From NCBI RefSeq assembly GCF_008040105.1, contig NZ_VRMG01000010.1, positions 62,001 to 126,000 of the forward strand: a stretch of DNA of 64,000 nucleotides. The letters are read 5' to 3'. Made by a program: the position numbers and the translations under genes. This document shows, one piece after another, positions 10,201 through 38,347 of the stretch (positions within the stretch are counted from its first letter, which is position 1; each line of letters begins with the position of its first letter). The notes beneath the pieces were generated by a model. It had not been told where the DNA came from, searched no databases, and saw only the letters and a program-made list of their open reading frames with translations. This stretch comes from Lacisediminihabitans profunda. Lineage in GTDB: Bacteria > Actinomycetota > Actinomycetes > Actinomycetales > Microbacteriaceae.

Positions 10201-10454
10201 TCGTCGATCGCCCTCGAGGCGAGGAACTCCCGGATGCCGTCCTCCCTGGTGCGACCGTCGAGGTGGCTGCGGTAATCGGCCTCGTCGTAGGGGCGGGCCG
10301 TCGGTGCGAGCCGGGGGAGAGCCTCGTCGAAGAGCTTCTTCCACGCCCGGGCATGCACGCTCGCGGTGTCGGTGACGACCCCGTCCAGGTCGAGGATGAC
10401 GGCGTCAAATGGCGGCGGGGCGGACCCGTGAGTGGTGCTCCGCCGCTCGCCCAT
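7299..10454 (-). CDS. HAD (beta-phosphoglucomutase-like) - glycoside hydrolase family 65 fusion protein
   Basis: 1051 residues from the ATG at 10454; an earlier in-frame ATG at 10682 would pull in the regulatory region. Residues ~15-250 are a HAD-IA phosphatase/mutase domain with DLDGVVTDT (nucleophile D22, D24), resembling beta-phosphoglucomutase. The remainder is a GH65 domain, the family of maltose, trehalose and kojibiose phosphorylases. The catalytic Glu is expected in MGPDEFHDGY near residue 740. A GH65 phosphorylase releases beta-glucose-1-phosphate, which a beta-PGM turns into glucose-6-phosphate, so the fusion joins consecutive steps of disaccharide use. Actinobacteria often encode the two as neighbouring genes or as this fusion. 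A DevR-like box lies 36 bases upstream of the start. Confidence 0.88.
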   Translation of the reverse strand: MGERRSTTHGSAPPPFDAVILDLDGVVTDTASVHARAWKKLFDEALPRLAPTARPYDEADYRSHLDGRTREDGIREFLASRAIDEDAELIASLAARKQRLFEAELSTAGVSTVPGTIEFLRTLRGRGIRTAVATSSRNAARVLKAAGVADLFDARVDGNDLRRLRIAGKPSPALFLEACRALGAEPDRTVVVEDAVSGIRAGAAGGFGLVVGLDRYLDNSPLQIAGADVVVRDLRDLDLDAAAHDGATSQWMLRYDGFDAAQEGTREALCTLANGYWGTRGAAAEADADGVHYPGTYFAGVYNTVTSERDGVATESEAMVNAPSWLPLWFRVDGGAWFAPSTARLLEYRQELDLRRALLTRDLRFSDDEGRITRVRSRRLVSQASAHTAMIETTIEPENWSGVLTVRSAIDGRVTNRNAAGSPLLTRRHLSARKTHELDAESILLEMETIRSGIHIATAARTRAFDGAHQLTPTRSFLVDEEGWVAHELDLTVNAGHAIRIEKVVVVRTSRDRAIASPAEAAATLLGRTPGADALLAAHERAWRILWDEFRVELRSGERQSLALNLNTFHVLQTLASVTADLDAGVPARGLHGEGYGGHVFWDELFVYPSLTLRRPDLSRTLLGYRYRRLDEARSSARAQGLSGAMFPWQSGIDGREVTPRELYNPLTGAWMPDNSYRQRHVGLGIAYSAWQHYQSTGDLSFLVDQGAELVIEVARYFADLATHEPATDRYSISGVMGPDEFHDGYPDQPGEGLRNNAYTNVMAAWVLRRAADTVSLLASRSCRPLWDRLGLLATEADRWLDIGRRLTVPFLRDGAIAQFEGYESLAELDWERYRSRYGSIGRLDLILNAEGDSTNRYKVSKQPDALMLLYLFSAEELRELLSEMGYPLPAEAVVRTVNHYTERSTYGSTLSNVVHSWIEARQRRERSWDFLTRALESDLSDIQGGSTRDGIHVGAMAGSIDMVGRCYPGLELRSDMLWLHPLLPPEIDSIAFDFTYRSQQLRLELSHMLLTVTVESSGAAPITVVVDGHRSELAPGQSMKYVLDGTGGLP

Positions 10455-10489
10455 GGTTCGAGTCTCGAGGCCACCGGGCGGGAGCGCCA

Positions 10490-10503
10490 GTGGCTTTGGT
10501 CCC
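10490..10503 (-). promoter_or_regulatory. DevR/DosR-like box upstream of the HAD-GH65 gene
   Basis: GTGGCTTTGGTCCC reads on the plus strand and GGGACCAAAGCCAC toward the gene. It matches the mycobacterial DevR palindrome (GGGACTWWAGTCCC) in the right half-site and most of the left. It ends 36 bases before the ATG at 10454. Confidence 0.55.
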
Positions 10504-10540
10504 GCCGGCTGAGCCGGGATGACCAACGGATTGCGGCACA

Positions 10541-10572: not shown

Positions 10573-10839
10573 TCCAATGACCCCCGAATAGGGGTACAAC
10601 CAGCCAATTGTGCGGGGTTTTTCAGCATTGCTGTGTTTAGCCTGTAATCGGCACCATCCGCCGCGACACCTCCGGTTGACATTTACGTCATGTGGGTCAC
10701 GCGCGTTGATCGTGTCGTTTCAGTGCAGCAGGTGAAGGGCACAGAGAGCCCCACCGCCAACGCCATCGTCGCCGTTGCCCGGCACACGCGTGCCGGGCGC
10801 GATTGATCGCGCCTGCCCAACGGAATGGAGATCAGCATC

Positions 10840-15385: not shown

Positions 15386-15496
15386 ATGTACTGCCCAAGG
15401 GACGTTGGTTAACCAGCTGATGGGTGGGCCCGCTCCTATCGGGGTGTGGGGCCTGTGTCCGCGCCACTGTGCGGCACTCCCTTGCCCTTGGCACGC

Positions 15497-15757
15497 GTTG
15501 TGCAGGACGGCTCCGCCGTCCACGGTGCCCGCCCCGCAGACTCCAGTTGTGCAGGACGGGTTCTGCAGGACGGTTGGACGGGTTGTGCAGGACGCCTCGG
15601 GCGGATGGCGAGGACGATTGGTGCAGAACCGACGGGAACGTCCCGCAGACCGGGACTCTTCGGGTCGCCACACCCCTGCCGTATCCTGCACAAGCTGTCC
15701 TGCACAACTGGAGTCTGCGGGGTAGGCGACCATGCCTCCGGGGCCCGTCCTGCAGAG
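15497..15757. repeat. Cluster of TTGTGCAGGACG repeats with a perfect 26-bp inverted repeat
   Basis: Copies or near copies of TTGTGCAGGACG lie at about 15498, 15547, 15563, 15583 and 15619. Inverse copies lie at about 15684, 15697 and 15747. Two of them extend into a perfect 26-bp inverted pair, 15532-15557 and 15697-15722, which share CCCCGCAGACTCC followed by AGTTGTGCAGGAC. Open frames through the block are low-complexity and not protein-like. It appears to be an intergenic repeat family, possibly trapping an older insertion. The rest of 15386-16054 holds the IS481 scrap and a hairpin. Confidence 0.65.
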
Positions 15758-17188: not shown

Positions 17189-17202
17189 GAGGCGAAAGTC
17201 CC
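17189..17202 (-). promoter_or_regulatory. DevR/DosR-like box
   Basis: On the minus strand the site reads GGGACTTTCGCCTC, keeping the full left half-site GGGACTTT of the DevR palindrome and a partial right half. It faces the membrane-protein gene starting at 17114, 75 bases away. Confidence 0.5.
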
Positions 17203-19642: not shown

Positions 19643-19742
19643 GGGACCTTCGGCCGAGCCGTGCCACGCCGCAGGCGGGGTCGGATTTCGAGGGCGAGTC
19701 GTGCTTAAGAGTACGCTGGCGGCAACCTAGGACCTTCGGCCC
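19643..19742 (+). promoter_or_regulatory. Pair of DevR/DosR-like boxes before the phosphoketolase operon
   Basis: GGGACCTTCGGCCG (19643-19656) and AGGACCTTCGGCCC (19729-19742) share the core GGACCTTCGGCC and lie 86 bases apart on the same strand. The closer one ends 59 bases before the phosphoketolase ATG. Paired DevR sites upstream of strongly induced genes are known in mycobacteria. Confidence 0.6.
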
Positions 19743-19801: not shown

Positions 19802-22273
19802 ATGGTCTCGTCCTCGGAATCCACCTCGCACGAACTCGCTACCAGATCCAGTTACCCGCTCCACGTGGTGGACGAATGGTGGAGGGCCGCGAACTACCTC
19901 ACGGTGGGGCAGATCTACCTCAAGACGAACCCGTTGCTCACCGCAGTCCTCGCTCCCGAGCACATCAAGCCGCGACTTCTCGGCCACTGGGGCACGTCCC
20001 CGGCGCTCAACCTCATCTATGCGCACCTGAACCGCATCATCGTGCAGCGCGAGGCCAACGTGCTCTACGTCGCGGGCCCGGGACACGGCGGACCGGCCAT
20101 GGTGGCCAACGCCTGGCTCGACGGCACGTACTCGGAGCTGTTCCCCAACGTGAGCCAGGATGCCGAGGGCATGGCCGAGCTCTTCCGGCAGTTCTCCTTC
20201 CCGGGCGGCATCCCGTCGCATGCCTCGCCCGAGACCCCGGGTTCGATCCACGAGGGCGGAGAACTCGGCTATTCGCTCGTTCATGCCTACGGCGCGGCGC
20301 TGGACAACCCGTCGCTCACGGTGGCCTGCGTGATCGGCGACGGAGAGGCCGAGACGGGCACCCTCGCCGCGAGCTGGCACCTCAACAAGTTCCTCAACCC
20401 ACAGACCGACGGCGTCGTGCTGCCGATCCTCAACCTCAACGGCTATAAGATCGCGAACCCCGCCGTGCTCGCCAGGATCCCGGAGGACGAGCTGCTCGCC
20501 CTCTTCCGTGGTTACGGCTACTCGCCGCGAATCGTCTCCGGCGGGTTCGACGGCGAGGATCCGATGGCCGTGCACGACGCTCTGGCTGCGGTCCTCGAGC
20601 AGGCGTTCGACGACATCCAGAGCATCAAGCGTCGCGCCAGAAGCGGTCGCTCCGTGGGTCGGCCGGCCTGGCCGATGATCATCCTGCGCACCCCGAAGGG
20701 CTGGACGGGCCCCCGCTTCGTCGACGGGGTGCCGGTAGAGGGCACCTGGCGTGCCCACCAGGTCCCGCTCGCCGAGGTGCGGGAGAACCCGGAACACCTC
20801 GCCCTGCTCGAGGCGTGGATGCACAGCTACAGCCCGCGGGAGCTCTTCGACCGCGAGGGCCGGCCCACGCCCACCCTCGAGTCCATCAGGCCCCGGGGCG
20901 CGAAGCGGATGAGCGCCATCCCCGCCTCCAACGGTGGCCTGCTGCTCAGGGACCTCGCGCTGCCCCCGATCGAGAACCGACAGGTGGATGTGAGCGCGCG
21001 CCGCGGTGCCACGTCGGAGGCCACGCGGGTGCTCGGGCACTGGCTCGCCGACGTCGTCAAGGCCAACCCCGACAACTTCCGCATCTTCGGACCGGACGAG
21101 ACGGCCTCCAACCGCCTGGACGGCGTGTACGAGGTCACCGCCAAGCAGTGGCAGGGCTCGTTCGAGCCGACGGACGAGCACCTCGACCCCGAGGGAAAGG
21201 TCATCGAGATCCTGAGCGAGAACCTCGTCCAGGGTCTGCTCGAGGGCTACCTGCTCAGCGGCCGGCACGGGCTGATGAACTCCTACGAGGCCTTCATCCA
21301 CGTTGTCGACTCGATGTTCAACCAGCACGCGAAGTGGCTTGAGTCGAGCGCCCACGTTCCCTGGCGGCGGCCGGTCGCCTCCTTCACCTACCTGCTGAGT
21401 TCGCATGTCTGGCGCCAGGATCACAACGGTTTCTCGCACCAGGATCCCGGATTCCTCAACCACGTGGTGAGCAAGAGCGCCAAGGTCGTTCGGGTGTACC
21501 TCCCGTCCGACGCCAACAGCCTGCTCGTGACCGCGGAGCACTGCCTGGCCACCCGCGACTACGTGAATGTGATCGTCGCCGGCAAGCAGCCGGCGCCGAC
21601 CTTCCTGAGCCTCGAGGAGGCGCGGATCCACGGCGCGCGGGGAATCGGCATCTGGGACTGGGCGGGCACGGAGCGTGACGGCGAAGACGTTCACGTCGTT
21701 CTCGCGGCGGCCGGGGACGTGCCGACTCTCGAGGCGATGGCGGCGGTGCACCTGCTTCGGCAGAACATCCCGGGACTTCGGGTCCGCTTCGTCAACGTCG
21801 TCGACCTGATGCGGCTGCAGGATCCGCTCGAGCACCCGCACGGCATGCCGAACAACGACTTCGACGCCATCTTCACCACCAGCAAGCCGGTGATCTTCGC
21901 CTTCCACGGCTACCCGGCCCTCGTGCACCAGCTCGCCTATCGCCGCACCAATCATGACAACATCCACGTGCGCGGGTTCAAGGAGAAGGGCACCACGACG
22001 ACACCGTTCGACATGCTCATGCTCAACGATCTTGATCGCTACCGCCTCGCGATGGATGTGATCAGGCACGTGCCCGGCCTCGGCGAACGCTATGCGGGGC
22101 TCGCCCAGCACTTCGACGACGAGCGTGCCCGGCACCGCGCATTCGCCTACGAGCATGGAATCGATAGCCCGGATGTTCTCGGCTGGGGTTGGCTCGATGC
22201 GCGGCCCGGCGAGACCGAGGAGCCGACCGGTGACGCCCTGGACACAGGGGCAGACGCCGTCCTCGGTGCCTGA
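19802..22273 (+). CDS. xfp: Phosphoketolase (xylulose-5-phosphate/fructose-6-phosphate)
   Basis: 823 residues from the ATG at 19802, with GAAAGGA upstream; the usual family length is about 800. Visible marks are GPGHGGPA near residue 97, the thiamine-diphosphate/Mg site GDGEAETG near 181 with NLNGYKI after it, and the conserved histidine-rich [18 protein letters not shown] (near 540) in the pyrimidine domain. The enzyme splits xylulose-5-P or fructose-6-P with phosphate into acetyl-phosphate and a triose- or tetrose-phosphate, giving ATP without an electron acceptor. This suits low-oxygen survival, and it sits behind two DevR-like boxes. The Mg-type ATPase starts nine bases after its stop, so the two are co-transcribed. 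No acetate kinase gene is adjacent. Confidence 0.95.
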
Positions 22274-22282: not shown

Positions 22283-24943
<2,661 letters not shown>

Positions 24944-25018: not shown

Positions 25019-25468
25019 CTAGTAGCGCTCCGGTTCCGGTGCGCGCAGAAAGCGGCGCCCGGTGATCTCGGTCGGCGTGATGCGAACGTAGATGTACTTG
25101 AGGGTCGGAATCCAGGGGCTGAGCGGAAGCTGGTCGGCCTCGAAGATGTCTTCCTGATTCTCGATCATTTGGGCACGGCCCTTGACGATCACGCTCCAGG
25201 CCCACTCGTCGGTGTAGGCATCCGCCTCGAAGGCGACGTTGGAGTTGATGGTCAGCTCGAGCAGCTTGGTGCCCTCCGAGGTGCGGAAGAGGATCGTGTC
25301 CCCGTCGGCGTAGTAGTTGATCGGGAAGATCTCGGGCTGGTTCGCGACACTCACGCCGAGCCTCCCGAAGGCGGATCCGTCGAGCAACTCCCACGACTCG
25401 GCCTCGGTGAGCACCGTGACCGGACCCTGGGGAGACCAGAGATCGATGTTCTCCTCCTGTGGTGACAT
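25019..25468 (-). CDS. Pyridoxamine 5'-phosphate oxidase-fold flavoprotein (PNPOx-like)
   Basis: 149 residues from the ATG at 25468, which has GGGAGGAG six bases upstream; the longer frame to 25492 lacks one. The split-barrel pattern is visible: SWELLDGSAFGRLGVSVANQPEIFPINYY is the typical first beta-hairpin, with the FPINY block thought to contact the flavin phosphate, followed by DTILFRTSEGTKLLEL. The family binds FMN or F420, and its members reduce various small substrates. Dormancy regulons of mycobacteria contain several such proteins. It follows cydC by 23 bases on the same strand and may be the last gene of the cyd operon. The cofactor cannot be decided from sequence. Confidence 0.82.
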   Translation of the reverse strand: MSPQEENIDLWSPQGPVTVLTEAESWELLDGSAFGRLGVSVANQPEIFPINYYADGDTILFRTSEGTKLLELTINSNVAFEADAYTDEWAWSVIVKGRAQMIENQEDIFEADQLPLSPWIPTLKYIYVRITPTEITGRRFLRAPEPERY

Positions 25469-27249: not shown

Positions 27250-28882
27250 TGGCGGGTTCCGCCATCCGGATCACGTCGTCCGCCGCCGCGAGCACCGCCG
27301 GCCGGTGGCTCGCGACCAGCACGGTGATCCCGGCCGCCGCGAGGGTTCGGAGACCGACGAGAAGGTCCGCCTCCGTGTCGCCGTCGAGCGCGGCGGTCGG
27401 TTCGTCGAGCACGAGGATGGGGCAGCCGCGGTCGAGGCAGCGGTAGATGGCCCTGGCCACCGCCACCCGGTCCGCCTGCCCGCCGGAGAGTCCTCCGCCG
27501 TTCACCGCGACGGGCGAGTCCTGGTCGAGTTCGGAGGCCGCCGCGAGCGCGAGCGACCGCTCGACGAGGGCGCGGTCGACACTCGCCGCGCCGAGCGCCA
27601 CATTGGCGGCGATCGTGCCCTCGAGGAGGCCGGCGTTCTGCCCGGCCCAGGCCACGCGATCGAGCCTCTCGGCCGACCGGTCGCCGTCGATGTCGATCTC
27701 GCCGGCGAATGGCACGAATCCGAGCAGCGCGGCGATGATGCTGGACTTGCCCGATCCGCTCGGCCCGGCGAGCACGGTCATCCTCCCGGCGTCGATCTCC
27801 GCGTTGAAGGGGTGCACGGCCCGGTCACCCTCGTAGTCGACGGTCACGCGCGAGAAGCGGACGCCGGCGGGCGCGAGCGCGCCTGGCTGCCAGTTAGAGG
27901 CGGCCCTCGTCAACGGCGTGGGCACCGCGTCCGCCGCATCGAGGACGACGAAGACGTCCTCGGCGGCCGCGATGCCGTCTGCCGCGGCGTGGTAGTTGGC
28001 CCCGACCTGCCGGAGCGGGAGGAAGGCCTCGGGGGCGAGCAGGAGCACGAACAGGCCGACTCCGAGTCCGAGGTCGCCGTTCACAAGCCGCAGGCCCACC
28101 GAGACGGCGACGAGGGCGACCGAGAGGCTGGCGATCAGTTCGAGCGCGAACCCGCTGAGGAAGGAGATGCGCAGCACCTTCATCGTCTCGACCCGGTAGC
28201 CCTCGGTGATCGCCTCGATACGGGAACGCTGGCGCTCGGCGCGACCGAAGATCTTGAGGGTGGCCAGCCCGTTCACGAGGTCGAGGAATCGGCTGGACAG
28301 GTGGGTGAGGCTGCGCCACTGTGCCCGCTGCACGCTCTGAGTGGCCCAGCCGATCAGCACCATGAAGAGGGGGATCAGGGGAAGCGTGACGAGCACCGCT
28401 ATGCCGCTCGTCGCATCCTGGAGCATCATGACGGCGACGATGACCGGAGTGGCCACCGCGGTGAGTACCAGCTGCGGCAGGAAGAGCGAGAAGTATCCGT
28501 CGAGGGCCTCGAGGCCGTGCCCGGCCGTCGTGGCGATCTCGGCCCGGTTGCGCCCGGCGAGCCAGCCCGGCCCGAGTCTGGCGAGGCCGGCGACGAACCG
28601 ACGCCGCAACTGGCTCTTCACCAGGGCGGAGCCGCGCGCGGAGCCGAAATCGGCAAGCCAGACGAGTGCGGCCCGAAGCGCCCCCACCGCGGCCAGCGCG
28701 CCGATAACGCCCCACGCTGCCTCGAGCGGCACCCCGTGGATCGCATCGACAAGGACGCGCGATAACAGCCAGCAGAACGCGACGGTGCAGGCGGTGCGTG
28801 CAACGCCGAGAGCCCCGGAGAGCACCAGGAACAGGCGCGCGGCGGCCGCGTAGCGCAGCAGGCGGGGGTCGAACGGACGCAC
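27242..28882 (-). CDS. cydD: CydD subunit of the cysteine/glutathione ABC exporter
   Basis: 546 residues from the GTG at 28882, eight bases after the cydB stop; the longer frame to 29689 is only a shadow over cydB. Residues ~15-290 hold six helices. RRRFVAGLARLGPGWLAGRNRAE is the loop seen at the start of CydD proteins, and QLVLTAVATPVIVAVMML the fourth helix region. The ATPase part has Walker A GPSGSGKSS near 340, signature LSGGQADRVAVARAI and Walker B ILVLDEPTAAL. It partners with CydC to form the heterodimeric exporter. Both ATP sites look intact. Confidence 0.88.
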   Translation of the reverse strand: MRPFDPRLLRYAAAARLFLVLSGALGVARTACTVAFCWLLSRVLVDAIHGVPLEAAWGVIGALAAVGALRAALVWLADFGSARGSALVKSQLRRRFVAGLARLGPGWLAGRNRAEIATTAGHGLEALDGYFSLFLPQLVLTAVATPVIVAVMMLQDATSGIAVLVTLPLIPLFMVLIGWATQSVQRAQWRSLTHLSSRFLDLVNGLATLKIFGRAERQRSRIEAITEGYRVETMKVLRISFLSGFALELIASLSVALVAVSVGLRLVNGDLGLGVGLFVLLLAPEAFLPLRQVGANYHAAADGIAAAEDVFVVLDAADAVPTPLTRAASNWQPGALAPAGVRFSRVTVDYEGDRAVHPFNAEIDAGRMTVLAGPSGSGKSSIIAALLGFVPFAGEIDIDGDRSAERLDRVAWAGQNAGLLEGTIAANVALGAASVDRALVERSLALAAASELDQDSPVAVNGGGLSGGQADRVAVARAIYRCLDRGCPILVLDEPTAALDGDTEADLLVGLRTLAAAGITVLVASHRPAVLAAADDVIRMAEPANA

Positions 28883-28890
28883 CGCTTGGG

Positions 28891-29907
28891 TCAGCTCGCC
28901 GTCGTGCTCGTGGGCTGCGGAATGGATGCCCGGGTCACCCGCTTGCGGAACACCCAGTAGGTCCAGCCCTGGTACACCAGGACGAGCGGGAGGAAGATCA
29001 GGGTGGTCCAGCTCATCACGGTGAGAGTGTACGGCGTGCTCGACGCGTTCGCGATGGTGAGGCTGTTGGCCGGGTCGTTGCTCGCCGGCATCACGTTGGG
29101 GTAGAGCGCGGCGAAGAGGCTCAGCACCGCGACCGCGATGGTGACCGCCATGAGAGTGAAGGCGCCACGCTCCTTTGCTCGGAAGTTGGCGATGAACGAG
29201 CCGATGAGCAGCACGGCGGCCGCCCCGGCGAGAATCCAGGAGAGCGGCTTGCCGTGGGCCAGGTTGGTCCAGAGCAGGAACGACGCCGCGACGACGATCG
29301 TGGCGATGCCGGAGCGCACGGCGAGCCTCTGCGACCGCAGCCGGAGGTCGCCATCCGTCCTCAACGAGACGAAGACCACGCCGTGGGTGAAGAACAGCAG
29401 CAGGGTCGTCAGGCCCCCGAGCAGCGCGTATGGGTTGAGCAGGTCGAAGAGCGTGCCGGTGTAGTTGTGGTTCGAGTCGAGTGCCACCCCCTGCACGATG
29501 TTGGCGAACGCGACACCCCAGAGCAGCGCCGGCACGGCCGAGCCGACGACGATCATCCCGTCGAACCAGCTCTTCCAGCGGGACTCCGGGCGGTGGTGGC
29601 GGTACTCGAACGACACCCCGCGCGCGATGAGCGCCAGCAGGATGAGCAGCAGGGCGAGGTAGAACCCGCTGAAGAGCGTGGCGTACCACTCGGGGAAGGC
29701 CGCGAAGAGGGATGCGCCGGCCACGATCAGCCAGGTCTCGTTGAGATCCCAGATCGGGCCGATCGTGTTGATCATGACGCGACGGTCGATCTCGTCGCGG
29801 CCGAGGAAGGGCAGGGCCATTCCCACACCGAAGTCGAAGCCGTCAAGCACGAAGTACCCGATGAAGAGGAAGCCGACAATGCCGAACCAGAGTAGGGAGA
29901 GATCCAT
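28891..29907 (-). CDS. cydB: Cytochrome bd ubiquinol/menaquinol oxidase subunit II
   Basis: 338 residues with eight or nine membrane helices. The N-terminal IVGFLFIGYFVLDGFDFGVGM and the block GPIWDLNETWLIVAGASLFAAFP near 55 are diagnostic of CydB. It holds no heme of its own but is required for the stability of the complex in the cytoplasmic membrane. It begins nine bases after the cydA stop and is followed eight bases later by cydD. The length is typical of Gram-positive CydB. Confidence 0.95.
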   Translation of the reverse strand: MDLSLLWFGIVGFLFIGYFVLDGFDFGVGMALPFLGRDEIDRRVMINTIGPIWDLNETWLIVAGASLFAAFPEWYATLFSGFYLALLLILLALIARGVSFEYRHHRPESRWKSWFDGMIVVGSAVPALLWGVAFANIVQGVALDSNHNYTGTLFDLLNPYALLGGLTTLLLFFTHGVVFVSLRTDGDLRLRSQRLAVRSGIATIVVAASFLLWTNLAHGKPLSWILAGAAAVLLIGSFIANFRAKERGAFTLMAVTIAVAVLSLFAALYPNVMPASNDPANSLTIANASSTPYTLTVMSWTTLIFLPLVLVYQGWTYWVFRKRVTRASIPQPTSTTAS

Positions 29908-29916: not shown

Positions 29917-31329
29917 CTAGTAGACGGTGACCGCGTCGGACGGCCGGCCGGAGGTGTCGTCGAGGGGGACCACGTCATCCGGGCCCTTCTGGGCAGCGCG
30001 CTTGATGAGCCGGAATTCGACGACGGCGAGGGCTCCGTAGATCAGGGTGAAGGCGACGATCGAGATCAGCACGTCGAGACCGGTGATGTTGGGGGAGACC
30101 CCGTCCTTGGTCTTGAGAAGACTGAAGACGATCCACGGTTGGCGGCCCATCTCGGTGAAGATCCAGCCCACGATCATCGCGGCGAGGGGGAGCGGGAACG
30201 CCCAGACCGCCACCCGCCAAACCCAGCGCTGCTTCGGCATCCGGCCCCCGCGAATCAGCCAGAGGCCCACGATCGAGATGATCACCGACAGGAGGCCGAG
30301 GCCGATCATCCAGCGGAACGCCCAGTAGGTGACCCAGATCACCGGGGCGTAGTTGCCCGGTCCGTAGAGGCTCGTGTACTCCGCTTGCAGGTCATTGATA
30401 CCCTCGACGGTTCCGTTGAGCGTGTGGGTCGACAGGAACGAAAGGAGGTACGGGATGCGGATCGAGAACAACTCGTTCACACCGTCCGGTGTGCCGAGGG
30501 TGAAGATCGAGAACGAGGCGTCGGCTCCGCTCGACGTCTTGTACAGCGCCTCGGCGGCGGCCATTTTCATCGGCTGGGTGGACACCATCGCGAGACCGAG
30601 CTGGTCGCCGGTGAGCACGGTGAGGATGCCGGCGCCGATCATCGTCCACATCCCGAACTTGATGGCGGGACGCATGGTGTCCAGGTGCTGGTTGCGGGCC
30701 AGGTGCCAGGCCGCGACGCAGATCACGAGGGCGGCGGACACCATGAACGAGGCCACGATCGTGTGCGGGAAGGCGGCTAGCGCGACCTTGTTGGAGAGCA
30801 CCGCCCAGATGTCGGTGAGCTCGGCCCGCCCGCGCACCTTGTTCAATTCGAAGCCCACCGGATGCTGCATGAAGGCGTTCGCGGCGATGATGAAGTAGGC
30901 GGAGAGGATCGTGCCGGCGGCGGTGAGCCAGATGGTGGCGAGGTGGAGGCCGCGCGGCAGCTTGTCCCAGCCGAAGATCCACAGGCCGATGAACGTCGCC
31001 TCGAGGAAGAACGCCAGCAGGCCCTCGAGGGCGAGCGGTGCCCCGAAGACGTCGCCGACGAAGCGAGAGTATGTCGACCAGTTCATGCCGAACTGGAATT
31101 CCTGCACGATGCCGGTGACCACGCCCATGGCGAAGTTGATCAGGAACAGTTTGCCGAAGAAGTGGGTGAGCTGCAGGTACTTCGCCTTCGACGTGCGCAC
31201 CCAGGCCGTCTGGAAGACCGCGGTCGTCGTGGCCATGCCGATCGTGATCGGCACGAACAGGAAGTGGTAGATCGTCGTCAACCCGAACTGCCATTGCGAT
31301 AGCACGAGGGGACTGAGCAGGTCGTTCAC
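29917..31329 (-). CDS. cydA: Cytochrome bd oxidase subunit I
   Basis: 470 residues, the short-Q-loop form usual in Gram-positives. The heme b595 ligand His is H22 (TIYHFLFVPITIG). EFQFGMNWSTYSRFVGDVFGAPLALEGLLAFFLEATF contains the conserved helix 3 Glu cluster (cut here: QFGMNWSTYSRFVG, then LEGLLAFFLEATF), and the MQHPVGFE block carries the b558 His ligand. CydAB reduces oxygen to water with menaquinol at very high affinity, which allows respiration at trace oxygen and under nitric oxide. It is the first gene of cydABDC. A near-perfect DevR-like box lies 134 bases upstream (31463-31476), which suggests hypoxic induction. Confidence 0.96.
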   Translation of the reverse strand: MNDLLSPLVLSQWQFGLTTIYHFLFVPITIGMATTTAVFQTAWVRTSKAKYLQLTHFFGKLFLINFAMGVVTGIVQEFQFGMNWSTYSRFVGDVFGAPLALEGLLAFFLEATFIGLWIFGWDKLPRGLHLATIWLTAAGTILSAYFIIAANAFMQHPVGFELNKVRGRAELTDIWAVLSNKVALAAFPHTIVASFMVSAALVICVAAWHLARNQHLDTMRPAIKFGMWTMIGAGILTVLTGDQLGLAMVSTQPMKMAAAEALYKTSSGADASFSIFTLGTPDGVNELFSIRIPYLLSFLSTHTLNGTVEGINDLQAEYTSLYGPGNYAPVIWVTYWAFRWMIGLGLLSVIISIVGLWLIRGGRMPKQRWVWRVAVWAFPLPLAAMIVGWIFTEMGRQPWIVFSLLKTKDGVSPNITGLDVLISIVAFTLIYGALAVVEFRLIKRAAQKGPDDVVPLDDTSGRPSDAVTVY

Positions 31330-31460: not shown

Positions 31461-31480
31461 GAGGGACTTTGGTCCCGCAA
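31461..31480 (-). promoter_or_regulatory. Best DevR/DosR-like box of the window, upstream of cydA
   Basis: GAGGGACTTTGGTCCCGCAA contains GGGACTTTGGTCCC, one step from the mycobacterial consensus GGGACTWWAGTCCC, with both half-sites complete. It lies between the end of the flavodoxin gene (31493) and the cydA start (31329), so it can only serve cydABDC in that direction. Confidence 0.7.
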
Positions 31481-31492: not shown

Positions 31493-32035
31493 TCACGGCG
31501 TGGCCGCGAGGGCGGCCGTCGCCAGCCGCCCGATCCGTTCCCCCCATGCGCGGGCGCGCTCGAGTTCGCCGGCCTTGATGGCCTCGGCGTCGTCGACGAG
31601 AAAGCTCGAACGCCGCGATACCTGCCGCAGACCGCGGCGGGCGAGTGTCTTTCCGATCGACACCGACGCGGCTCCCGTGAGGATGCGGGCCATGTCCCGG
31701 CGGGTGTCGAATGCCGCGAAGAGCCCGGATCCGGTCGGCACGGTCTCGAGCCACTCGCGCACCCCGACACCGACGGCACCCGACTCCAGCGCGAGGTGGC
31801 GCTGCGGGTCGTTCGACATGGCAGCCGCGGTGGCTCGGGTCGCGGGCATGCTCATCCCGTGCACGTGGGTCGGTGCCCCGACCACGATGAGGTCGGCGAG
31901 CCCGATTCCCAGCGGGTCGGCGTCGTGAACCCTCACGAGCACCACCGTCGACGACTCGGCGAGACCGACGGCAATCTGCTCCGCGATCCTTCTCGTGCTA
32001 CCGAACATCGACTCGTAGATCACGAGCGCCTTCAT
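31493..32035 (-). CDS. Flavodoxin-domain protein
   Basis: 180 residues from the ATG at 32035, with GGGAGGAAG seven bases upstream. The start MKALVIYESMFGSTRRIAE is the FMN-phosphate-binding loop of flavodoxins (S/T-x-x-G-x-T pattern as SMFGSTR). LADLIVVGAPTHVHGM near 50-65 is the second flavin loop. The C-terminal ~60 residues are longer than in a minimal flavodoxin. It is a cytosolic electron carrier or FMN-dependent redox protein. The start lies inside the end of the upstream stress-protein gene (38-base overlap), so both are one transcript behind the DevR-like box at 32989. Confidence 0.85.
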   Translation of the reverse strand: MKALVIYESMFGSTRRIAEQIAVGLAESSTVVLVRVHDADPLGIGLADLIVVGAPTHVHGMSMPATRATAAAMSNDPQRHLALESGAVGVGVREWLETVPTGSGLFAAFDTRRDMARILTGAASVSIGKTLARRGLRQVSRRSSFLVDDAEAIKAGELERARAWGERIGRLATAALAATP

Positions 32036-32918
32036 CCCGGGCTTCCTCCCGTTCGAGGTGGTCGGCGTCCTGGTCCCCGTGCACGACGAGCGTCGGTCCG
32101 GCGAGATTGAGAAGCACATCGTGGCTCACCGGGCCGAGGGCCCGCTGGGCCAGCCCGTGGCGACGGGAACTGCCGATGACCAGCAGGCGGGCTGAGGTGG
32201 AGGCCTCGATAAGGGCTTCCGCCGGCGTCCGGCGCATCGTGCGCGACTTCACCGAGACGGTGACGCAGTGCTCCTTGGCCAGCGACACGGCGTCGGCCAT
32301 CATCTGCTCGACGGCCGCATGCACGAGCTTCTCGTGCTGGAGCGTCCTGTCGTCCGGGTCCAGCCGCAACTGGGGGAGCCGCCACGAGCGGACGAGGGTG
32401 AGGTCCTGGCCGGTACGCTCGGCCTCCGCCGCGGCGAATCGCACGGCGGCCCAGCCCGCGGTGGAATCGTCGACTCCCGCCACGATTCCCCGGCGGTTTC
32501 GCACCGAGGACTCGGGGATGATCGCAACCGGCGCCTGGGCGCTCGCCGCGAGTTGGAGGCTTCGGGAGCCGAAGGCCCTTCCGTGCAGGAACCCGGTCTT
32601 GTGGGTGCCCACGACCACCAGTTCGGAGCGCGCGGAGGCGCTCGCGAGTTCAACCATCGGGTCGCCGCGGAGCACCTCGCTCGTCACCGGAACAGTCGGT
32701 TCCAGAGACCGCGCGAATTCCGACTCCGCCTCCACGAGTTCTCGGGCCGAGCGGTGGATCTCCTCGAGGGCGAGGGTGCCGATCATGCCCCATTCGTCAT
32801 CGACCACGTGCACGAGCAGCACGCCCGCACCGGTAGCCGCGGCGCGCCGCATCGTCCAGGTGAGCGCGGAGCGGCTGGGTGACGACCCATCGATCCCCGC
32901 CAGGATGGTGCGTTCCAT
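31998..32918 (-). CDS. Universal stress protein, tandem UspA domains
   Basis: 306 residues with two Usp folds (about 1-138 and 144-285). Each has the ATP-binding glycine pattern: GTHKTGFLHGRAFGS near residue 105 and GSSRRHGLAQRALGPVS near 250. The start TILAGIDGSSPS and IVAGVDDSTAGWAAV give the first strands and conserved Asp of each half. Tandem Usp proteins are the most common members of the mycobacterial DosR regulon, where some bind ATP and help enforce slow growth. A DevR-like box is 71 bases upstream. The gene is divergent from the devS-like kinase and overlaps the flavodoxin gene. Confidence 0.92.
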   Translation of the reverse strand: MERTILAGIDGSSPSRSALTWTMRRAAATGAGVLLVHVVDDEWGMIGTLALEEIHRSARELVEAESEFARSLEPTVPVTSEVLRGDPMVELASASARSELVVVGTHKTGFLHGRAFGSRSLQLAASAQAPVAIIPESSVRNRRGIVAGVDDSTAGWAAVRFAAAEAERTGQDLTLVRSWRLPQLRLDPDDRTLQHEKLVHAAVEQMMADAVSLAKEHCVTVSVKSRTMRRTPAEALIEASTSARLLVIGSSRRHGLAQRALGPVSHDVLLNLAGPTLVVHGDQDADHLEREEARDEGARDLRVDVR

Positions 32919-32988: not shown

Positions 32989-33002
32989 GGGGCTTTGGTC
33001 CC
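32989..33002 (-). promoter_or_regulatory. DevR/DosR-like box between usp and devS-like genes
   Basis: GGGGCTTTGGTCCC keeps the complete right half-site and differs by one base in the left. It is 71 bases before the usp ATG (32918) and 117 bases before the devS-like GTG (33119), so it could serve both directions and give the two-component system feedback. Confidence 0.6.
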
Positions 33003-33118: not shown

Positions 33119-34825
33119 GTGACGAGCGAAGATGACTCCATGACCTTCCCCGACGAACCGCGCGGCGAGCTGGACCGGGCACTGAGCGAACTCGTCGACC
33201 GCGCCCAGGAGGTGCTCACCACCCAAGGCAGGCTCCGTGCACTCCTCCGGGCCAACCAGGCGGTGGTCGAGCAGCTCGAACTTCCGGTGGTGCTGCGCAG
33301 GATAGTCGAGTCCGCGGTGGGTCTCGTGGGTGCCCAGTACGGCGCGCTCGGTGTGATCGCGCCGCTCGGCGGACTCGAGCAGTTCATCAACGTCGGGATG
33401 CCGCCGGAGCTGGCGAAGACGATCGGGCACCTTCCAGAGGGACACGGGCTGCTCGGGGCGCTCATCGACGATCCGCGACCGATCCGGCTGCGGCATATCA
33501 CCGATGACTCCCGCTCGGCCGGCTTCCCCGCTTCGCACCCCAGCATGGACAGCTTCCTGGGCGTCCCCGTGCGCGTTCGCGACGAGGTGTACGGCAACCT
33601 CTACCTCACCAACCAGGCGTCGGGTAAGTTCAGCAAGGAAGACGAAGAACTCGTCACTGCGCTGGCCGCCACCGCCGGGTTCGCCATCGACAACGCCCGC
33701 CTTTTCGCCGAGACCCGGCGACGCCAGGCTTGGGCGGCCGCGTCCGCCGAGGTGACGGCCGCGCTCCTCTCCTCCGAACGGAGCGACTCGATCTCCATCC
33801 TCGTGGGCCGGGTGCTCGCGCTGGCCGAGGCGGATCTCGTCTGCGTCGTACTGCCCACCGACGACCCGGCGAAGCTCGCGGTTGGCACGGCCCGCGGGGT
33901 CGACGAGGAGTCCCTGGAGGGGACGATCGTGGAAGCCGAGGGCTCGATCGCGGGCAGCGTGCTCGAGGGACTGCAGCCCCGCCTCGTCAATGACGGCGAT
34001 CGAGACGAGATCGCGCTGCCCAGCGGTGCGAGTCTCGGCCCGGTGATGGCGCTCCCGCTCGTGGTCGGCAGCCGGGCCGAGGGTGCCCTCATCGTCGCCC
34101 GACTCCATGGCTCGACGAGCTTCTCGCCTGCCGACCTCGAAATGGCCGCCGATTTCGCGGGCCAGGCGAGCGTGGCCATGGAGCTCGCCAAGGCCAGGGC
34201 GACCCGCCAGCGGATGCTGCTCCTCGAGGATCGCGGACGCATCGCCCGCGACCTGCACGATCATGTCATCCAGCAGCTCTTTGCCACCGGACTGGAACTG
34301 CAGAGCCTCGCGGGGGCCATCGCGCCGTCGCCCGAGGCGGACAGGGTGCTCCAAAGCGTCTCCAGTCTCGATGCGGCCATCGCGCAGATCAGGACCGTGA
34401 TCTTCGCGCTTTCCTCGCAGTCGGCCGACCGCAGGGACACGGTGCGGCACTGGATTATCGATCTCGCCAATGAGCTCGCCCCAGGCCTAGCTCGCACCCC
34501 CACCGTGCAGTTCTCGGGCCCCGTGGACCTCGTGGTGACCGACGACCTCGCCGACGATGTGCTCGCCGTGACCCGGGAGGCGCTCACGAACGCCGCCAAG
34601 TATGCCGGGGCCCAGAACACCACAGTGTCGCTCGCAGCCACCGACGGCTGGGTGGCGTTGGAGATCACCGACGACGGCGTCGGGGGAGTGTCGGCGAGTC
34701 CACGCCGCAGTGGCCTCGCTAATCTCGAGGAGCGGGCGGTGCGCCGTCGCGGCACCTTCGACCTGGACTCCGACGACAGCGGCACCCGTGTGCGCTGGAG
34801 TGTCCCCTTCGATCTGGCAGACTGA
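33119..34825 (+). CDS. devS: DevS/DosS-like GAF sensor histidine kinase
   Basis: 568 residues (M. tuberculosis DevS: 578), from a GTG with GAGG eight bases upstream. Two GAF domains (about 56-200 and 220-360) precede a HisKA_3 dimerisation domain with RIARDLHDHVIQQL (phospho-acceptor H380) and an HATPase with ALTNAAKYAGA and DDGVGG. In GAF-1, GFPASHPSMDSFLGVPVRVRD aligns with the segment of DevS that holds the heme ligand His149; the equivalent is H140. The kinase would sense O2/NO/CO or redox state through heme and phosphorylate the regulator encoded 24 bases downstream. Heme binding is inferred from that His and its context. Confidence 0.9.
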   Translation: MTSEDDSMTFPDEPRGELDRALSELVDRAQEVLTTQGRLRALLRANQAVVEQLELPVVLRRIVESAVGLVGAQYGALGVIAPLGGLEQFINVGMPPELAKTIGHLPEGHGLLGALIDDPRPIRLRHITDDSRSAGFPASHPSMDSFLGVPVRVRDEVYGNLYLTNQASGKFSKEDEELVTALAATAGFAIDNARLFAETRRRQAWAAASAEVTAALLSSERSDSISILVGRVLALAEADLVCVVLPTDDPAKLAVGTARGVDEESLEGTIVEAEGSIAGSVLEGLQPRLVNDGDRDEIALPSGASLGPVMALPLVVGSRAEGALIVARLHGSTSFSPADLEMAADFAGQASVAMELAKARATRQRMLLLEDRGRIARDLHDHVIQQLFATGLELQSLAGAIAPSPEADRVLQSVSSLDAAIAQIRTVIFALSSQSADRRDTVRHWIIDLANELAPGLARTPTVQFSGPVDLVVTDDLADDVLAVTREALTNAAKYAGAQNTTVSLAATDGWVALEITDDGVGGVSASPRRSGLANLEERAVRRRGTFDLDSDDSGTRVRWSVPFDLAD

Positions 34826-34849: not shown

Positions 34850-35488
34850 ATGATCCGAGTTTTCCTGGTTGACGATCACGAGATCGTGCGCCGAGGTATT
34901 GCCGACCTGCTCAATGCCGAGCCAGACATCGAGGTTGTGGGCGAGGCAGGTACCGCCGCCCAGGCCCGAGCGAGGATCGCGGCGACGCTACCCGATGTGG
35001 CGCTGCTCGATGTGCGCCTGCCGGACGGGAACGGCATCGACGTGTGCCGCGACGTGCGATCGAAGAGCCCGGAGGTTCGGTGCCTCATGGTCACCGCCTA
35101 CGACGACGACGAGGCCCTCTCCGCCGCGGTCGTGGCCGGTGCAGCCGGGTATGTGCTCAAGGACGTGCGAGGAAGCGGACTCGTCGAGTCCATCCGCAAG
35201 GTGGCGGCCGGCCGCATGCTCATCGATCCGGCGCTCTCGAGGCGGGTCGTCCAGCGGATGGAACACACCAGGGACAGTGATCCTCGACTGGGGTCGCTCA
35301 GCGCCCGGGAGCGCCAGATCCTCTCCCTCATCGCCGACGGCCTCACCAACCGGCAGATCGGCGTCGAGCTCTCCCTCGCCGAGAAGACCGTGAAGAATTA
35401 CGTGTCGAGCCTGCTGAGCAAGCTCGGCCTGCAGCGCAGGACCCAGGCGGCCGTGCTGCACCTGGGCACGCTGCACACCGACCAGTAG
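34850..35488 (+). CDS. devR: DevR/DosR-like NarL/FixJ response regulator
   Basis: 212 residues. The receiver domain has phospho-acceptor D54 (LLDVRLPDGNG) and K104 (YVLKD), the same numbers as in M. tuberculosis DevR. The LuxR-type helix-turn-helix ends with LAEKTVKNYVSSLLSKLG followed by LQRRTQAA. K179, K182 and N183, the base-contacting residues of DevR, are all present at identical positions. It lies 24 bases after the devS-like gene. Seven sites resembling the DevR palindrome occur between 10.4 and 35.6 kb, so this protein probably controls the surrounding genes in response to low oxygen or related signals. Confidence 0.93.
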   Translation: MIRVFLVDDHEIVRRGIADLLNAEPDIEVVGEAGTAAQARARIAATLPDVALLDVRLPDGNGIDVCRDVRSKSPEVRCLMVTAYDDDEALSAAVVAGAAGYVLKDVRGSGLVESIRKVAAGRMLIDPALSRRVVQRMEHTRDSDPRLGSLSARERQILSLIADGLTNRQIGVELSLAEKTVKNYVSSLLSKLGLQRRTQAAVLHLGTLHTDQ

Positions 35489-35508
35489 CCGTCACCCCGG
35501 CAGCGGGG

Positions 35509-35522
35509 GACTTTGTGCTCTA
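35509..35522 (+). promoter_or_regulatory. DevR/DosR-like box before the second usp gene
   Basis: GGGACTTTGTGCTC has a perfect left half-site and a weak right one. It lies 20 bases past the devR stop and 33 bases before the usp ATG, at the spacing of a box overlapping the -35 region. Confidence 0.5.
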
Positions 35523-35555: not shown

Positions 35556-36458
35556 ATGGATGCAACGAATCGCGCGGAACAGACCATCGTCGGCTGGGAT
35601 CGTTCGCCTGCCGCCCACGCTGCCCTTGCCTGGGCGATCGACCGGGAACGACCGCGCAACGGCACTGTCACGTTGCTCTGGGTCTTCGGCGACATCGCCA
35701 CCAGCCGGCACGACCTGGAGACCGCTCGAACTCTCGCCGCGAAGGATGCCCGACAGGCGATGGAGTCGGCGCCCGAGGTGACCGTCCTCAGTGAGGTCGT
35801 GCTGGGGGAGCCGTACGACAGACTCCTCTCCCGATCGGAGCCCGGTTCGCTCATCGCCGTCGGCGTGCACGATCGAACCTCGAGGCGAGTGCTGCGCGGT
35901 GCGTCCATCGGACTCCGACTCGCGGCATCCGCCCCCGGTCCGGTGGCCATCATCCCGGCGCCGCACGGCGAACGGGAGGGCGTCGTCGTGGGGGTCGACG
36001 GTTCAGAGGCATCCCTCAACGCCGCGAGGTTCGCGGCACGCGAGGCGGAGCGACGCGGAGAGGTACTCACCGTGATCCACGGCTGGCTCGAACCGAGTAT
36101 CTGGCTCGACGCGTTTCCCCTGGAGCCGGAGTTCCTGCTTCAGTTGCAGGAGGCCCACGACCTGATCCTCAACCAGTGCCTCGCCATCATCAGCCAGGAA
36201 TTTCCGGACCTCCGCGTCTCCGGACGCACCGCCCGCGGCCACATCCCGCGCTCCATCCTCGAGGCCTCGCCGTCCGCGGCGCTCGTCGTCGTCGGGAGCC
36301 AGAGCCGCCGGCTCGTCGGTCGCACTCTGCTCGGCTCGGTCAGTCACGAAGTGATGCTCAATCTCGAGGTGCCGGCGGTCGTGGTGCACAGCCCGGCGCC
36401 GGACGGCGTGGCCCCGACCAGCGCGACGAGCCGCACGGCGGCGGCAGCCACGACGTGA
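35556..36458 (+). CDS. Universal stress protein, tandem UspA domains
   Basis: 300 residues with two Usp folds. The second half is the better conserved, with VVVGVDGSEASLNAARFAA as its first strand-helix and the ATP loop GSQSRRLVGRTLLGSVSHE near residue 250. The first half is shorter and its glycine loop (GVHDRTSRRVLRGASIG) is less canonical, so nucleotide binding there is uncertain. A DevR-like box lies just upstream. The stop overlaps the GTG of the metal ATPase gene (GTGA), tying the two into one transcript. Confidence 0.9.
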   Translation: MDATNRAEQTIVGWDRSPAAHAALAWAIDRERPRNGTVTLLWVFGDIATSRHDLETARTLAAKDARQAMESAPEVTVLSEVVLGEPYDRLLSRSEPGSLIAVGVHDRTSRRVLRGASIGLRLAASAPGPVAIIPAPHGEREGVVVGVDGSEASLNAARFAAREAERRGEVLTVIHGWLEPSIWLDAFPLEPEFLLQLQEAHDLILNQCLAIISQEFPDLRVSGRTARGHIPRSILEASPSAALVVVGSQSRRLVGRTLLGSVSHEVMLNLEVPAVVVHSPAPDGVAPTSATSRTAAAATT

Positions 36459-38347
36459 GCGATACGCGCCAGGTGTCCTCGGCGGGAGTCGCCGCCGAGG
36501 TTCGCACCGCGTCGCGTGTCTTCGCCCGGTATCCGGTCGTCGGGGCCACCGTCCTCGTCGGCGCACTCGGAGGAGTGATCTGGCTCGCCGGCGCCCACGA
36601 CGTCGCCCGCTGGGTCGTGAGCGGGTACGCCCTGGTGATGGCGGCCGTGCGCGGCTGGCGGATGCTGCGCGACATCATCCGGGGACATGCCGGCGTCGAT
36701 ATTCTCGCGATCGCCGCGATCCTGGCCACCGTCGCCGTCGGGGAGTACTGGGCGAGCCTGGTGATCGTGCTGATGCTGTCCGGCGGAGAGGCGCTCGAAG
36801 ACTTCGCCGGGCGCCGCGCGCGCCGGGAGTTGACCGCGCTCCTCGCGCGGGCTCCGCAGTCGGCGCATCGTGTCGGGGTCGGAGACTCGGTCGACGAGAT
36901 CCCCATCGACGCCGTGGCGCTCGGTGACGAGTTATTCGTGCGACCGGGCGAGGTCGTGCCCGTCGACGGCACGCTGCTCTCCGAGATCGCGACGTTCGAC
37001 GAGTCGCAGCTCACCGGTGAGAGCCTCCCGGTCGAGCGCGGTGCGGGGGAGCAGGTGCTGAGCGGCAGTGTGAACGGCGAGTCGGCCATCCGCATCCGCG
37101 CGACCGCCGTGGCGGCGGACAGCCAATACCAGCGGGTCGTGCAACTCGTGGCCTCCGCTGCCCAGAGTCGGGCGCCGCTCGTGCGGCTCGCCGACCGGTT
37201 CGCGGTGCCGTTCACCGTGGTGTCGGTCGCCATCGCCGGCTTCGCCTGGTGGCTGAGCGGGGAGCCGGTGCGGTTCGCGGAGGTGCTGGTGGTGGCCACC
37301 CCGTGCCCGCTCCTGATCGCCGCACCGGTGGCCTTCATCGCCGGGATGAGCAGATCGGCCAAGGCGGGCGTGATCGTCAAGTCGGGGCAGATCCTCGAAC
37401 AACTCTCCCGGGTGAAGACCGTCGCCTTCGACAAGACGGGCACCCTCACGCTCGGGCTGCCCAAGGTCGTCGGCGTGCTGCCGCGTGAGTCGCTCGCCTC
37501 CAACGAACTGCTCTCGCTGGTGGCCTCGGTCGAACAGTATTCCCCGCATGTGCTCGCGTCAGCCATCGTCGACGCCGCTCTCGCGGCGGGCCTGGCGCTC
37601 CAGCCGGCCACCGAGATCCACGAGGAGACGGCCGCCGGAGTCACCGCCACCGTCGGCGGCCGTCGGATTGCCGTGGGAAAGCGGAGATTCGTGTCGGGGC
37701 TCGCCGGTGATATCGACTCGCCACCCCCGCGGTCCGGGCAGCTGGCCGTCTATGCGGCGGTCGACGGCGCCTATGCCGGCGAGATCCTGCTCTCCGACCG
37801 GGTGCGGGACAACGCGAAGTCCACCCTTGCCCAGCTGTCGCGGCTCGGTGTGCGGCGCACGATCCTGATCTCCGGCGACCTCGCCGCCACCGCGCAGCAT
37901 GTGGCGGACGAGCTGGGAATCACCGAGGTGCGCGCCCAGTGCCTCCCGGAGCAGAAGGTGGAGGCGGTGAAGGGCATCACCGACCGACCGGTGATGATGG
38001 TGGGTGACGGCGTCAACGATGCGCCGGTGCTCGCGGTGGCCGACATCGGCGTGGCGATGGGCGCCCGAGGTTCGACGGCAGCCAGCGAGTCGGCGGATGT
38101 CGTGATCATGGTCGACGACCTGTCACGCGTCGTCCGCGCAATCACCATCGGTTGGCAGACCAACGCGACGGCCTTGAGGGCGATCTGGCTCGGTATCGCG
38201 CTGAGCCTCGCGCTCATGATCGTCGCGACGTTCGGCGTGCTCCCGGCGATCGTCGGGGCGGCCCTGCAGGAGGTCGTGGACCTCCTGGTCATCCTCTACG
38301 CGCTCCGCGGTCTCGTGGAGCGACCGGACCGCCGGCTCGGACGCTGA
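36455..38347 (+). CDS. Heavy-metal P1B-type ATPase with TPC motif, no N-terminal metal domain
   Basis: 630 residues from the GTG at 36455, which overlaps the usp stop by four bases; the longer frame back to 36176 is a shadow of usp. Marks are TGESLPVERG near 190 (actuator), TPCPLLIAAP with Cys284 in the transport helix, phospho-acceptor Asp326 in DKTGTL, and VGDGVNDAPVLAVADIG near 515. There is no HMA domain or Cys/His-rich N-terminus. The TPC form, rather than CPC or SPC, is seen in the P1B-5 group, for which Ni2+ and Fe2+ export have been reported. Iron efflux would pair with the VIT transporter in this regulon; the metal is inferred. Confidence 0.85.
   Translation: MSDTRQVSSAGVAAEVRTASRVFARYPVVGATVLVGALGGVIWLAGAHDVARWVVSGYALVMAAVRGWRMLRDIIRGHAGVDILAIAAILATVAVGEYWASLVIVLMLSGGEALEDFAGRRARRELTALLARAPQSAHRVGVGDSVDEIPIDAVALGDELFVRPGEVVPVDGTLLSEIATFDESQLTGESLPVERGAGEQVLSGSVNGESAIRIRATAVAADSQYQRVVQLVASAAQSRAPLVRLADRFAVPFTVVSVAIAGFAWWLSGEPVRFAEVLVVATPCPLLIAAPVAFIAGMSRSAKAGVIVKSGQILEQLSRVKTVAFDKTGTLTLGLPKVVGVLPRESLASNELLSLVASVEQYSPHVLASAIVDAALAAGLALQPATEIHEETAAGVTATVGGRRIAVGKRRFVSGLAGDIDSPPPRSGQLAVYAAVDGAYAGEILLSDRVRDNAKSTLAQLSRLGVRRTILISGDLAATAQHVADELGITEVRAQCLPEQKVEAVKGITDRPVMMVGDGVNDAPVLAVADIGVAMGARGSTAASESADVVIMVDDLSRVVRAITIGWQTNATALRAIWLGIALSLALMIVATFGVLPAIVGAALQEVVDLLVILYALRGLVERPDRRLGR

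Follow-up and report, generated by a model that had tools for sequence, protein, structure and literature searches.

In mycobacteria a dormancy regulon is governed by the sensor kinases DosS/DosT and the response regulator DosR (DevS/DevR), and its target classes are described as universal stress proteins (Usp), a heat-shock protein and nitroreductase-type proteins (PMC5069765). Cytochrome bd is placed under other regulators there, Crp being reported for cydAB of M. smegmatis (PMC7739888) and SenX3-RegX3 for CydB of M. tuberculosis (PMC3116866). Cytochrome bd and the dos regulon of M. smegmatis are both induced by CO, yet the paper counts cytochrome bd apart from the DosR-regulated proteins (PMC8125079). 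Streptomyces coelicolor has an orthologous pair, OsdK-OsdR, with eight predicted sites near osdR, and 20 of the 22 genes SCO0198-SCO0219 are said to be controlled by it (PMC5069765). Here we describe a related system in a 64-kb stretch of Lacisediminihabitans profunda (positions 62,001 to 126,000 of contig NZ_VRMG01000010.1, assembly GCF_008040105.1; hereafter the window), which is part of a 4.02-Mb genome. A devS-devR pair lies there among operons preceded by DevR-type boxes, including those for cytochrome bd (cydABDC) and phosphoketolase (xfp-mgtA). We consider it highly probable that the pair is a two-component system of the DevS/DevR type whose regulon is partly clustered and has box-driven promoters; the regulon is real, and it comprises the cluster together with scattered members. 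The mycobacterial dormancy regulon is thereby extended to environmental Microbacteriaceae, which offer a compact test bed, partly in cultured strains, and an oxygen sensor would be tied directly to phosphoketolase and to a high-affinity oxidase that is reported to answer to other regulators in mycobacteria. The family of the host, given as probable by a first-pass annotation made from the letters alone, is borne out by the origin of the closest DevS relatives: the best 12 of 39 with names, at 64-69% identity, come from Microbacteriaceae or actinobacterial bins, with Lacisediminihabitans, Frigoribacterium, Agreia, Subtercola and Glaciihabitans among the genera.

The DevS/DevR pair, the DevR-type boxes and their promoter layout

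Judged by sequence, the sensor and the regulator are homologues of DevS/DevR (DosS/DosR), as the first-pass annotation had proposed for the middle of the cluster. The best solved-structure match of the regulator is M. tuberculosis DevR (3c3w, E 7.8e-70; runner-up VraR, 6.5e-41), with which it shares 109 of 203 residues, and it keeps D8, D9, D54, T82, Y101, K104, K179, K182 and N183, that is, all tested positions. We take these to be phosphorylation positions (D54, T82 and K104 in NarL-type response regulators) and DNA-contact positions (K179, K182 and N183). The sensor has the domain order GAF-GAF-HisKA_3-HATPase, with the DosT/DevS GAF-A and ATPase domains as best matches. Its His140 and Tyr162 align, at the same 22-residue spacing, with DosS His149, the heme ligand, and Tyr171, the ligand-discriminating distal residue (PMC4082495).

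A weight matrix was started from the box known in mycobacteria and trained on 754 upstream regions taken at 37 related loci, the window sequence being excluded (L066, which has the same hits as L052, and the distant L069 were omitted; L068, with a partial DevS hit, was retained). The refined motif is cGGGACCTTcGGCCCTg; it is built from about 110 sites and carries 19.9 bits. Applied to the window, it gives exactly seven sites of at least 10 bits (15.1-22.5 bits; next best 9.4), all at 10,490-35,520, the first some 23 kb ahead of devS and the last just past devR (Table 1), and none in the remaining 36 kb. The reversed window gives two sites at 10 bits or more, one at 11 or 12 and none at 13. Boxes of the GGGACTTNNGNCCCT type are present ahead of target operons, and the genes behind boxes include the DosR-type classes of Usp, heat-shock and nitroreductase/flavin-type proteins.

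The seven sites listed by the first-pass annotation all exist as sequences, and six stand where it put them, the one placed at 35509 really occupying 35507-35520. Six of its sites are strong by the matrix, but the one at 19643 reaches only 8.7 bits, below the gap, and is at best a possible secondary site, and the strong site at 25520 had been overlooked. Domain searches confirmed the genes that it saw behind the boxes (HAD-GH65, phosphoketolase-MgtA, cydABDC, with CydD as an ABC transporter by Pfam, usp-flavodoxin and usp-P1B ATPase) except for the membrane protein, which matched no Pfam family, and cytochrome bd, phosphoketolase-MgtA and usp-P1B ATPase are joined in one boxed cluster as it had said, with boxes preceding all three.

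The promoter layout was derived from 133 relatives' sites of at least 13 bits, with repeated site contexts counted once. Start codons are sharply concentrated at one distance from the box centre, with 32 start codons at 42 bp (31 of them ATG) against a mean of 2.6 elsewhere, and 50 start codons fall at 41-43 bp in total; 96 weak matches (4.5-7.5 bits) give no distance peak. At 37 of the 133 sites (about 28%) an ATG lies exactly at +42 in the box direction. If transcription starts at +42, positions +35 and +31, which the matrix does not span, become -7 and -11: T at -7 is found in 97% of these 37 sites, in 69% of the remaining 96 and in 18% when sites are read against the box direction, and A at -11 in 68%, 64% and 20%, respectively. 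These single-position counts replaced a strict TANNNT scan, which was set aside with few matches, 12 across the 133 sites close to the offset expected (2, 6 and 2 at +29 to +31). The box thus has an orientation, its centre lies at -42.5 and a -10 element stands at the matching offset. For the strong window sites, T stands exactly at -7 in five of seven and A at -11 in four of seven; the xfp and cydA boxes, which lack the T, have a TANNNT displaced by one base. An ATG occupies the predicted start at two of the seven, those of GH65 and usp2 (42.5 bp from the centre), and the pyridoxamine-phosphate-oxidase-like (PNPOx) gene has TTTAAT at the -10 position, followed by a short leader with GGGAGGAGC.

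Many targets are predicted to be leaderless because the ATG sits where transcription should start, and about 28% of the relatives' sites would give leaderless mRNAs. Such mRNAs are common in mycobacteria, at about 24-40% (PMC6448022, PMC8022548), and leaderless transcripts as such are not new; a link to a fixed DevR box was not found described in the literature searched. With the spacing fixed, transcription starts and leaderless mRNAs can be predicted to the exact base.

The matrix scan of the own genome covered a 400-kb sample (20 stretches of 20 kb on three contigs, about 10% of the genome, plus pattern matches). It holds two sites of at least 15 bits, both in one promoter region that separates a PNPOx gene from an hsp20 gene, and the reversed control also holds two; given two per 400 kb, seven sites in 28 kb have a Poisson P of about 2e-10, for an interval picked post hoc. 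A composite pattern of box, T at -7 and ATG at +1 matches the own genome ten times with at most one mismatch (reversed, 0) and 19 times with two mismatches (reversed, 4). Three of the ten lie within the cluster and seven elsewhere, so the DosR/DevR-like regulon described in the first-pass annotation as one 28-kb cluster survives as regulon and as cluster, but not as a cluster alone. Its own condition for refutation, sites as frequent elsewhere, turns out in its favour only with the trained matrix and the -10 position; the plain pattern fails. The seven scattered sites precede a PNPOx gene divergent from hsp20, genes for a BON protein, an AMP-binding enzyme and three small membrane-like proteins, and a short frame without a clear gene; strong boxes with no ATG at exactly that distance are found, too, before a Usp gene and, on the opposite side of the PNPOx box, before hsp20. 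The hsp20-PNPOx pair outside the cluster represents dormancy-type genes.

Two of these intergenic regions carry paired boxes. Between the divergent hsp20 and PNPOx genes (L079, 7881-7917; own contig C117, about 467.9 kb) are two strong boxes, with the PNPOx ATG exactly 42 bp away, and between divergent BON-domain and Usp genes (L003, 1480-1514; own contig C65, about 116.6 kb) are two boxes 21 bp apart.

Across 199 genomes of the family, the composite pattern (at most one mismatch) follows the regulator. The 60 genomes with DevS (E up to 1e-100), some of which supplied training loci for the matrix, hold 138 matches against 7 in the reversed control, and 47 of the 60 have a match. The other 139 give 39 matches against 32, with a match in 31 genomes. 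The composite promoter exceeds its control only where a close DevS is encoded. Among the relatives, 120 sites reach 15 bits, 99 have a called gene in the box direction and 93 of these genes were searched: 35 are Usp, 8 PNPOx, 6 alanine dehydrogenase, 6 zinc alcohol dehydrogenase, 5 Xfp, 5 CydA and 2 nitroreductase.

The system shares with mycobacterial DosS/DosT-DosR the sensor and regulator family, the key residues and the DNA box including its trailing T. It differs in that cytochrome bd and phosphoketolase are boxed and that boxes often stand at a fixed 42 bp before the ATG. In OsdK-OsdR the sites cluster round the regulator and usp genes as they do here, so physical clustering, which the first-pass annotation held to be unlike the scattered mycobacterial set, has a precedent in S. 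coelicolor. OsdR targets include a zinc alcohol dehydrogenase and a nitroreductase, which are shared with the relatives examined here, and one OsdR site, CGGGACCTTCGGCCCT, is the same box. By contrast, the OsdR consensus AGGGCCGATCGGCCCT differs in its centre from the derived cGGGACCTTcGGCCCTg, which places our box outside it, and OsdR sites lie 47-158 bp before genes in the part of the table compared. In the main text of the OsdR paper (PMC5069765) the words cytochrome and phosphoketolase are absent. Among the titles and abstract beginnings listed, we found no paper on DevR/DosR in Microbacteriaceae and none linking phosphoketolase with DosR or DevR. The box and its clustering round the regulator are already known; the apparent novelty lies in two boxed target operons, those of cytochrome bd and phosphoketolase, that recur beside devSR, and in the fixed leaderless layout.

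Cytochrome bd and phosphoketolase as predicted targets

CydA is present in 153 and Xfp in 103 of the 199 family genomes. DevS lies within 20 kb of CydA in at least 16 of the 46 genomes with both, and within 20 kb of Xfp in at least 15 of 50 (own genome left out of each), where about 0.6 would be expected in either case. A box of at least 13 bits within 450 bp upstream of cydA is found in 10 of 11 held-out devS-linked loci and in 2 of 50 unlinked ones (P 8e-9); held-out means that the contig of the linked locus, judged by its length, is absent from the training loci, and the 5 of 16 linked genomes that were in training are outside the 11. Some genomes counted as unlinked may encode a DevS that falls short of the 1e-100 threshold, as in G052, where devS/devR adjoin xfp. 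Eight of the ten boxes face cydA. In three genomes with two copies (G155, G026 and G090) the devS-linked CydA copy is boxed and the unlinked copy boxless, the linked box of G026 being weak (13.1 bits) and facing away. In L033, L034, G139 and G076, cydABDC lies behind usp1 without a box of its own, and cyd would be read through from usp1 there.

In a tree of 71 CydA sequences with two deep CydA types, the linked state needs five changes, at least four of them forced by well supported branches. That target operons have come together beside the regulator more than once makes the origin of regulon clusters testable. Seven duplicate rows were omitted and L200 held no cydA; the long branches of the second CydA type and of L216/L217 meet in this tree, and L216 and L217, grouped with the own CydA type by score, yet form a distant third branch.

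For phosphoketolase, where xfp has stress-cluster neighbours, 5 of 8 loci (own locus included) have a box before it in either orientation, against 0 of 22 without such neighbours (P 0.0015, own locus excluded); the box of L130 faces away. Given the 0 of 22, xfp as a family-wide target was rejected.

A bolder idea, which we think unlikely, is that the DevR locus serves as a collecting point: cyd operons of two distant CydA types would have been gathered beside devSR several times, mostly with boxes, and phosphoketolase under DevR would make acetyl phosphate, so that the regulon could feed its own activation. Such self-activation is conceivable because acetyl phosphate, the product of phosphoketolase, serves to phosphorylate OsdR in vitro (PMC5069765).

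Proposed mechanism and alternatives

From its homologues, the heme GAF domain of DevS would lose O2, or bind NO or CO, and the kinase would phosphorylate DevR. DevR would then bind the GGGACCTTCGGCCCT-like box in its set orientation, the box centre lying 42.5 bp ahead of where transcription starts. A box overlapping the -35 region is in the class II activator position, and DevR would recruit RNA polymerase to a weak -10 element (NANNNT); at part of the sites, to judge from the spacing, transcription would start on the A of the ATG and give leaderless translation. Predicted targets in the own genome are HAD-GH65, the membrane-type protein, xfp-mgtA, PNPOx, cydABDC, usp1-flavodoxin, usp2-P1B ATPase and others elsewhere. 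At low O2 or with NO, respiration would shift to the high-affinity cytochrome bd, and ATP would come from acetyl phosphate via phosphoketolase and acetate kinase, a gene for which is present in the own genome. Disaccharide phosphorolysis would save ATP, metal stress would be limited and stress protection provided. Control by oxygen (hypoxia or redox) is inferred from homology to the described systems.

The boxes might instead belong to another NarL/LuxR-type response regulator, with DevSR a mere neighbour, given that the genome has 26 regulator matches, the next best being 39-42% identical, and that NarL-type sites may look alike. However, the box agrees with GGGACTTNNGNCCCT, the consensus given for mycobacterial DosR (PMC6448022), the DNA-contact residues of DevR are unchanged and composite sites are enriched only where a close DevS is encoded; we regard this explanation as very improbable. 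We give next to no credence to the sites being GC-rich chance palindromes picked by eye. A loose IUPAC word gives 43 matches in the window against 51 expected (at most three mismatches), a close variant gives 36 in the own genome against 34 in the reversed control (at most one mismatch), neither being an enrichment, and site 19643 drops out; IUPAC counting was rejected as proof of enrichment because counts do not exceed expectation in window or genome. Yet a matrix blind to the window isolates the cluster, and the spacing and the -10 element, which it does not use, accompany the sites. A variant that retains the DevSR regulon has it answer NO or the redox state, not low oxygen, and is possible, if doubtful: DosS-type sensors respond to NO and CO too, with gas versus redox sensing debated (PMC4082495), and cytochrome bd withstands CO and other gaseous inhibitors (PMC8125079), but DevS retains its heme His and ligand-discriminating Tyr, and phosphoketolase and cytochrome bd suit low oxygen.

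Several observations weigh against a DevS/DevR regulon with cyd and xfp among its targets. Expectation maximisation on the upstream regions with 30 random seeds converged on codon-composition motifs; the unseeded search was abandoned, and the box was found only by seeding. At 10 bits the 400-kb sample has 16 sites against 18 reversed, the matrix being uninformative at 10-12 bits, and several own-genome matches (for example, L013, L022 and L027) have no convincing downstream gene. The box ahead of devS, at 32989, aims by orientation and -10 element at usp1-flavodoxin and away from devS, so devSR autoregulation is unsupported here. Most CydA of the family is boxless: cyd as a family-wide DevR target was rejected because, of the unlinked loci, none of the 29 closer to the own CydA type has a box and only two of the 21 with the other type do (G111, 24.4 bits; G052, 14.5 bits). 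In the same genus, G139 (= L036) and G076 are devS-linked and have no box directly before cydA. A gene-oriented box with T at -7 occurs in 2 of 30 xfp and 0 of 30 cydA loci, the own genes missing by one base.

Gene layout of the window

The features of the cluster are given in Table 1. Gene calls made by script were based on GC at third positions, and not on a gene finder. The start of the PNPOx gene was moved to the ATG behind GGGAGGAGC, as read from the sequence. A Pfam search of the membrane-type protein matched no family.

Table 1 Features of the boxed cluster (positions in the window)
Feature	Position	Strand	Remarks
HAD (beta-phosphoglucomutase type)-glycoside hydrolase family 65 (GH65) fusion	7299..10454	-	Pfam/NCBIfam and box spacing
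DevR-type box GGGACCAAAGCCAC	10490..10503	-	15.5 bits; aimed at GH65; -10 GAGACT at +30..+35
Glyoxalase-type gene	16055-16591		Same strand as the membrane-type protein gene; possibly co-read with it
Membrane-type protein, 159 aa	16635..17114	-	
DevR-type box GGGACTTTCGCCTC	17189..17202	-	16.0 bits; -10 CACCAT
Weak box GGGACCTTCGGCCG	19643..19656	+	8.7 bits; 86 bp ahead of the strong Xfp box
DevR-type box AGGACCTTCGGCCC	19729..19742	+	22.5 bits; upstream of xfp-mgtA; -10 TACCGT, offset off by one base
Phosphoketolase (Xfp)	19802..22273	+	NCBIfam NF003619, 1337 bits
MgtA-type Mg2+ P-type ATPase	22283..24943	+	TIGR01524; starts 10 bp 3' of xfp
PNPOx, Pyridox_ox_2 protein	25019..25468	-	Start at the ATG behind GGGAGGAGC
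CydC	25492..27249	-	TIGR02868, 495 bits
DevR-type box GGGACCTTCGACCC	25520..25533	-	20.7 bits; within cydC 3' end, upstream of PNPOx; -10 TTTAAT
ABC transporter occupying CydD position	27242..28891	-	Pfam ABC_membrane and ABC_tran matches only; open reading frame extends to 29689, start 28891 approximate; assigned by position and Pfam domains, not by a CydD model
CydB	28891..29907	-	TIGR00203
CydA	29917..31329	-	Sole CydA found in own genome
DevR-type box GGGACCAAAGTCCC	31463..31476	-	16.8 bits; upstream of cydABDC; -10 TACTGT, offset off by one base
Flavodoxin-domain protein	31493..32119	-	Real start probably near 32035
Universal stress protein usp1	31998..32918	-	Two Usp domains
DevR-type box GGGACCAAAGCCCC	32989..33002	-	17.0 bits; -10 CACGAT
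DevS/DosT-type sensor kinase	33119..34825	+	GAF-GAF-HisKA_3-HATPase
DevR/DosR-type response regulator	34850..35488	+	
DevR-type box GGGACTTTGTGCTC	35507..35520	+	15.1 bits; -10 GAGCAT; usp2 ATG exactly 42.5 bp from centre
Universal stress protein usp2	35556..36458	+	Two Usp domains; predicted leaderless
P1B heavy-metal ATPase	36455..38347	+	Overlaps usp2; TIGR01525, 518 bits; GTG start chosen by us

Four parts of the interval are without a strong box of their own: the glycosyltransferase-2 (GT2)-HlyD-GH81 set, the glyoxalase-type gene, a Ser/Thr protein kinase with GAF and a VIT1-family transporter. The GT2, HlyD-like and GH81-type genes at 10825-15385 form a tight set flanked by two boxes, and are possibly an exopolysaccharide unit. 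Next to it, at 15400-15900, no gene was recognised, and words like CCTGCACAAC and GACTCCAGTTGTGCAGG repeat both ways round by eye. Beyond the interval, GGGACGTTTCGCCC at 39314-39327, before a gene that by eye is cold-shock-like, resembles a box, scores below 7 bits by the matrix and was taken as chance.

The Ser/Thr protein kinase with its C-terminal GAF domain (17303 to about 18700) stands head to head with the VIT1-family transporter gene (18839-19609). A link of this kinase to DevR is conceivable because M. tuberculosis DosR is phosphorylated by Ser/Thr kinases (PMC12919924). A Ser/Thr kinase beside VIT1 in relatives was dropped as a candidate, since the kinase open reading frame at 17303-19495 runs antisense through VIT1 and the hits lie on the opposite strand of VIT1. 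VIT1 itself is also found within 10 kb of devS in L033, L037, L045 and L068.

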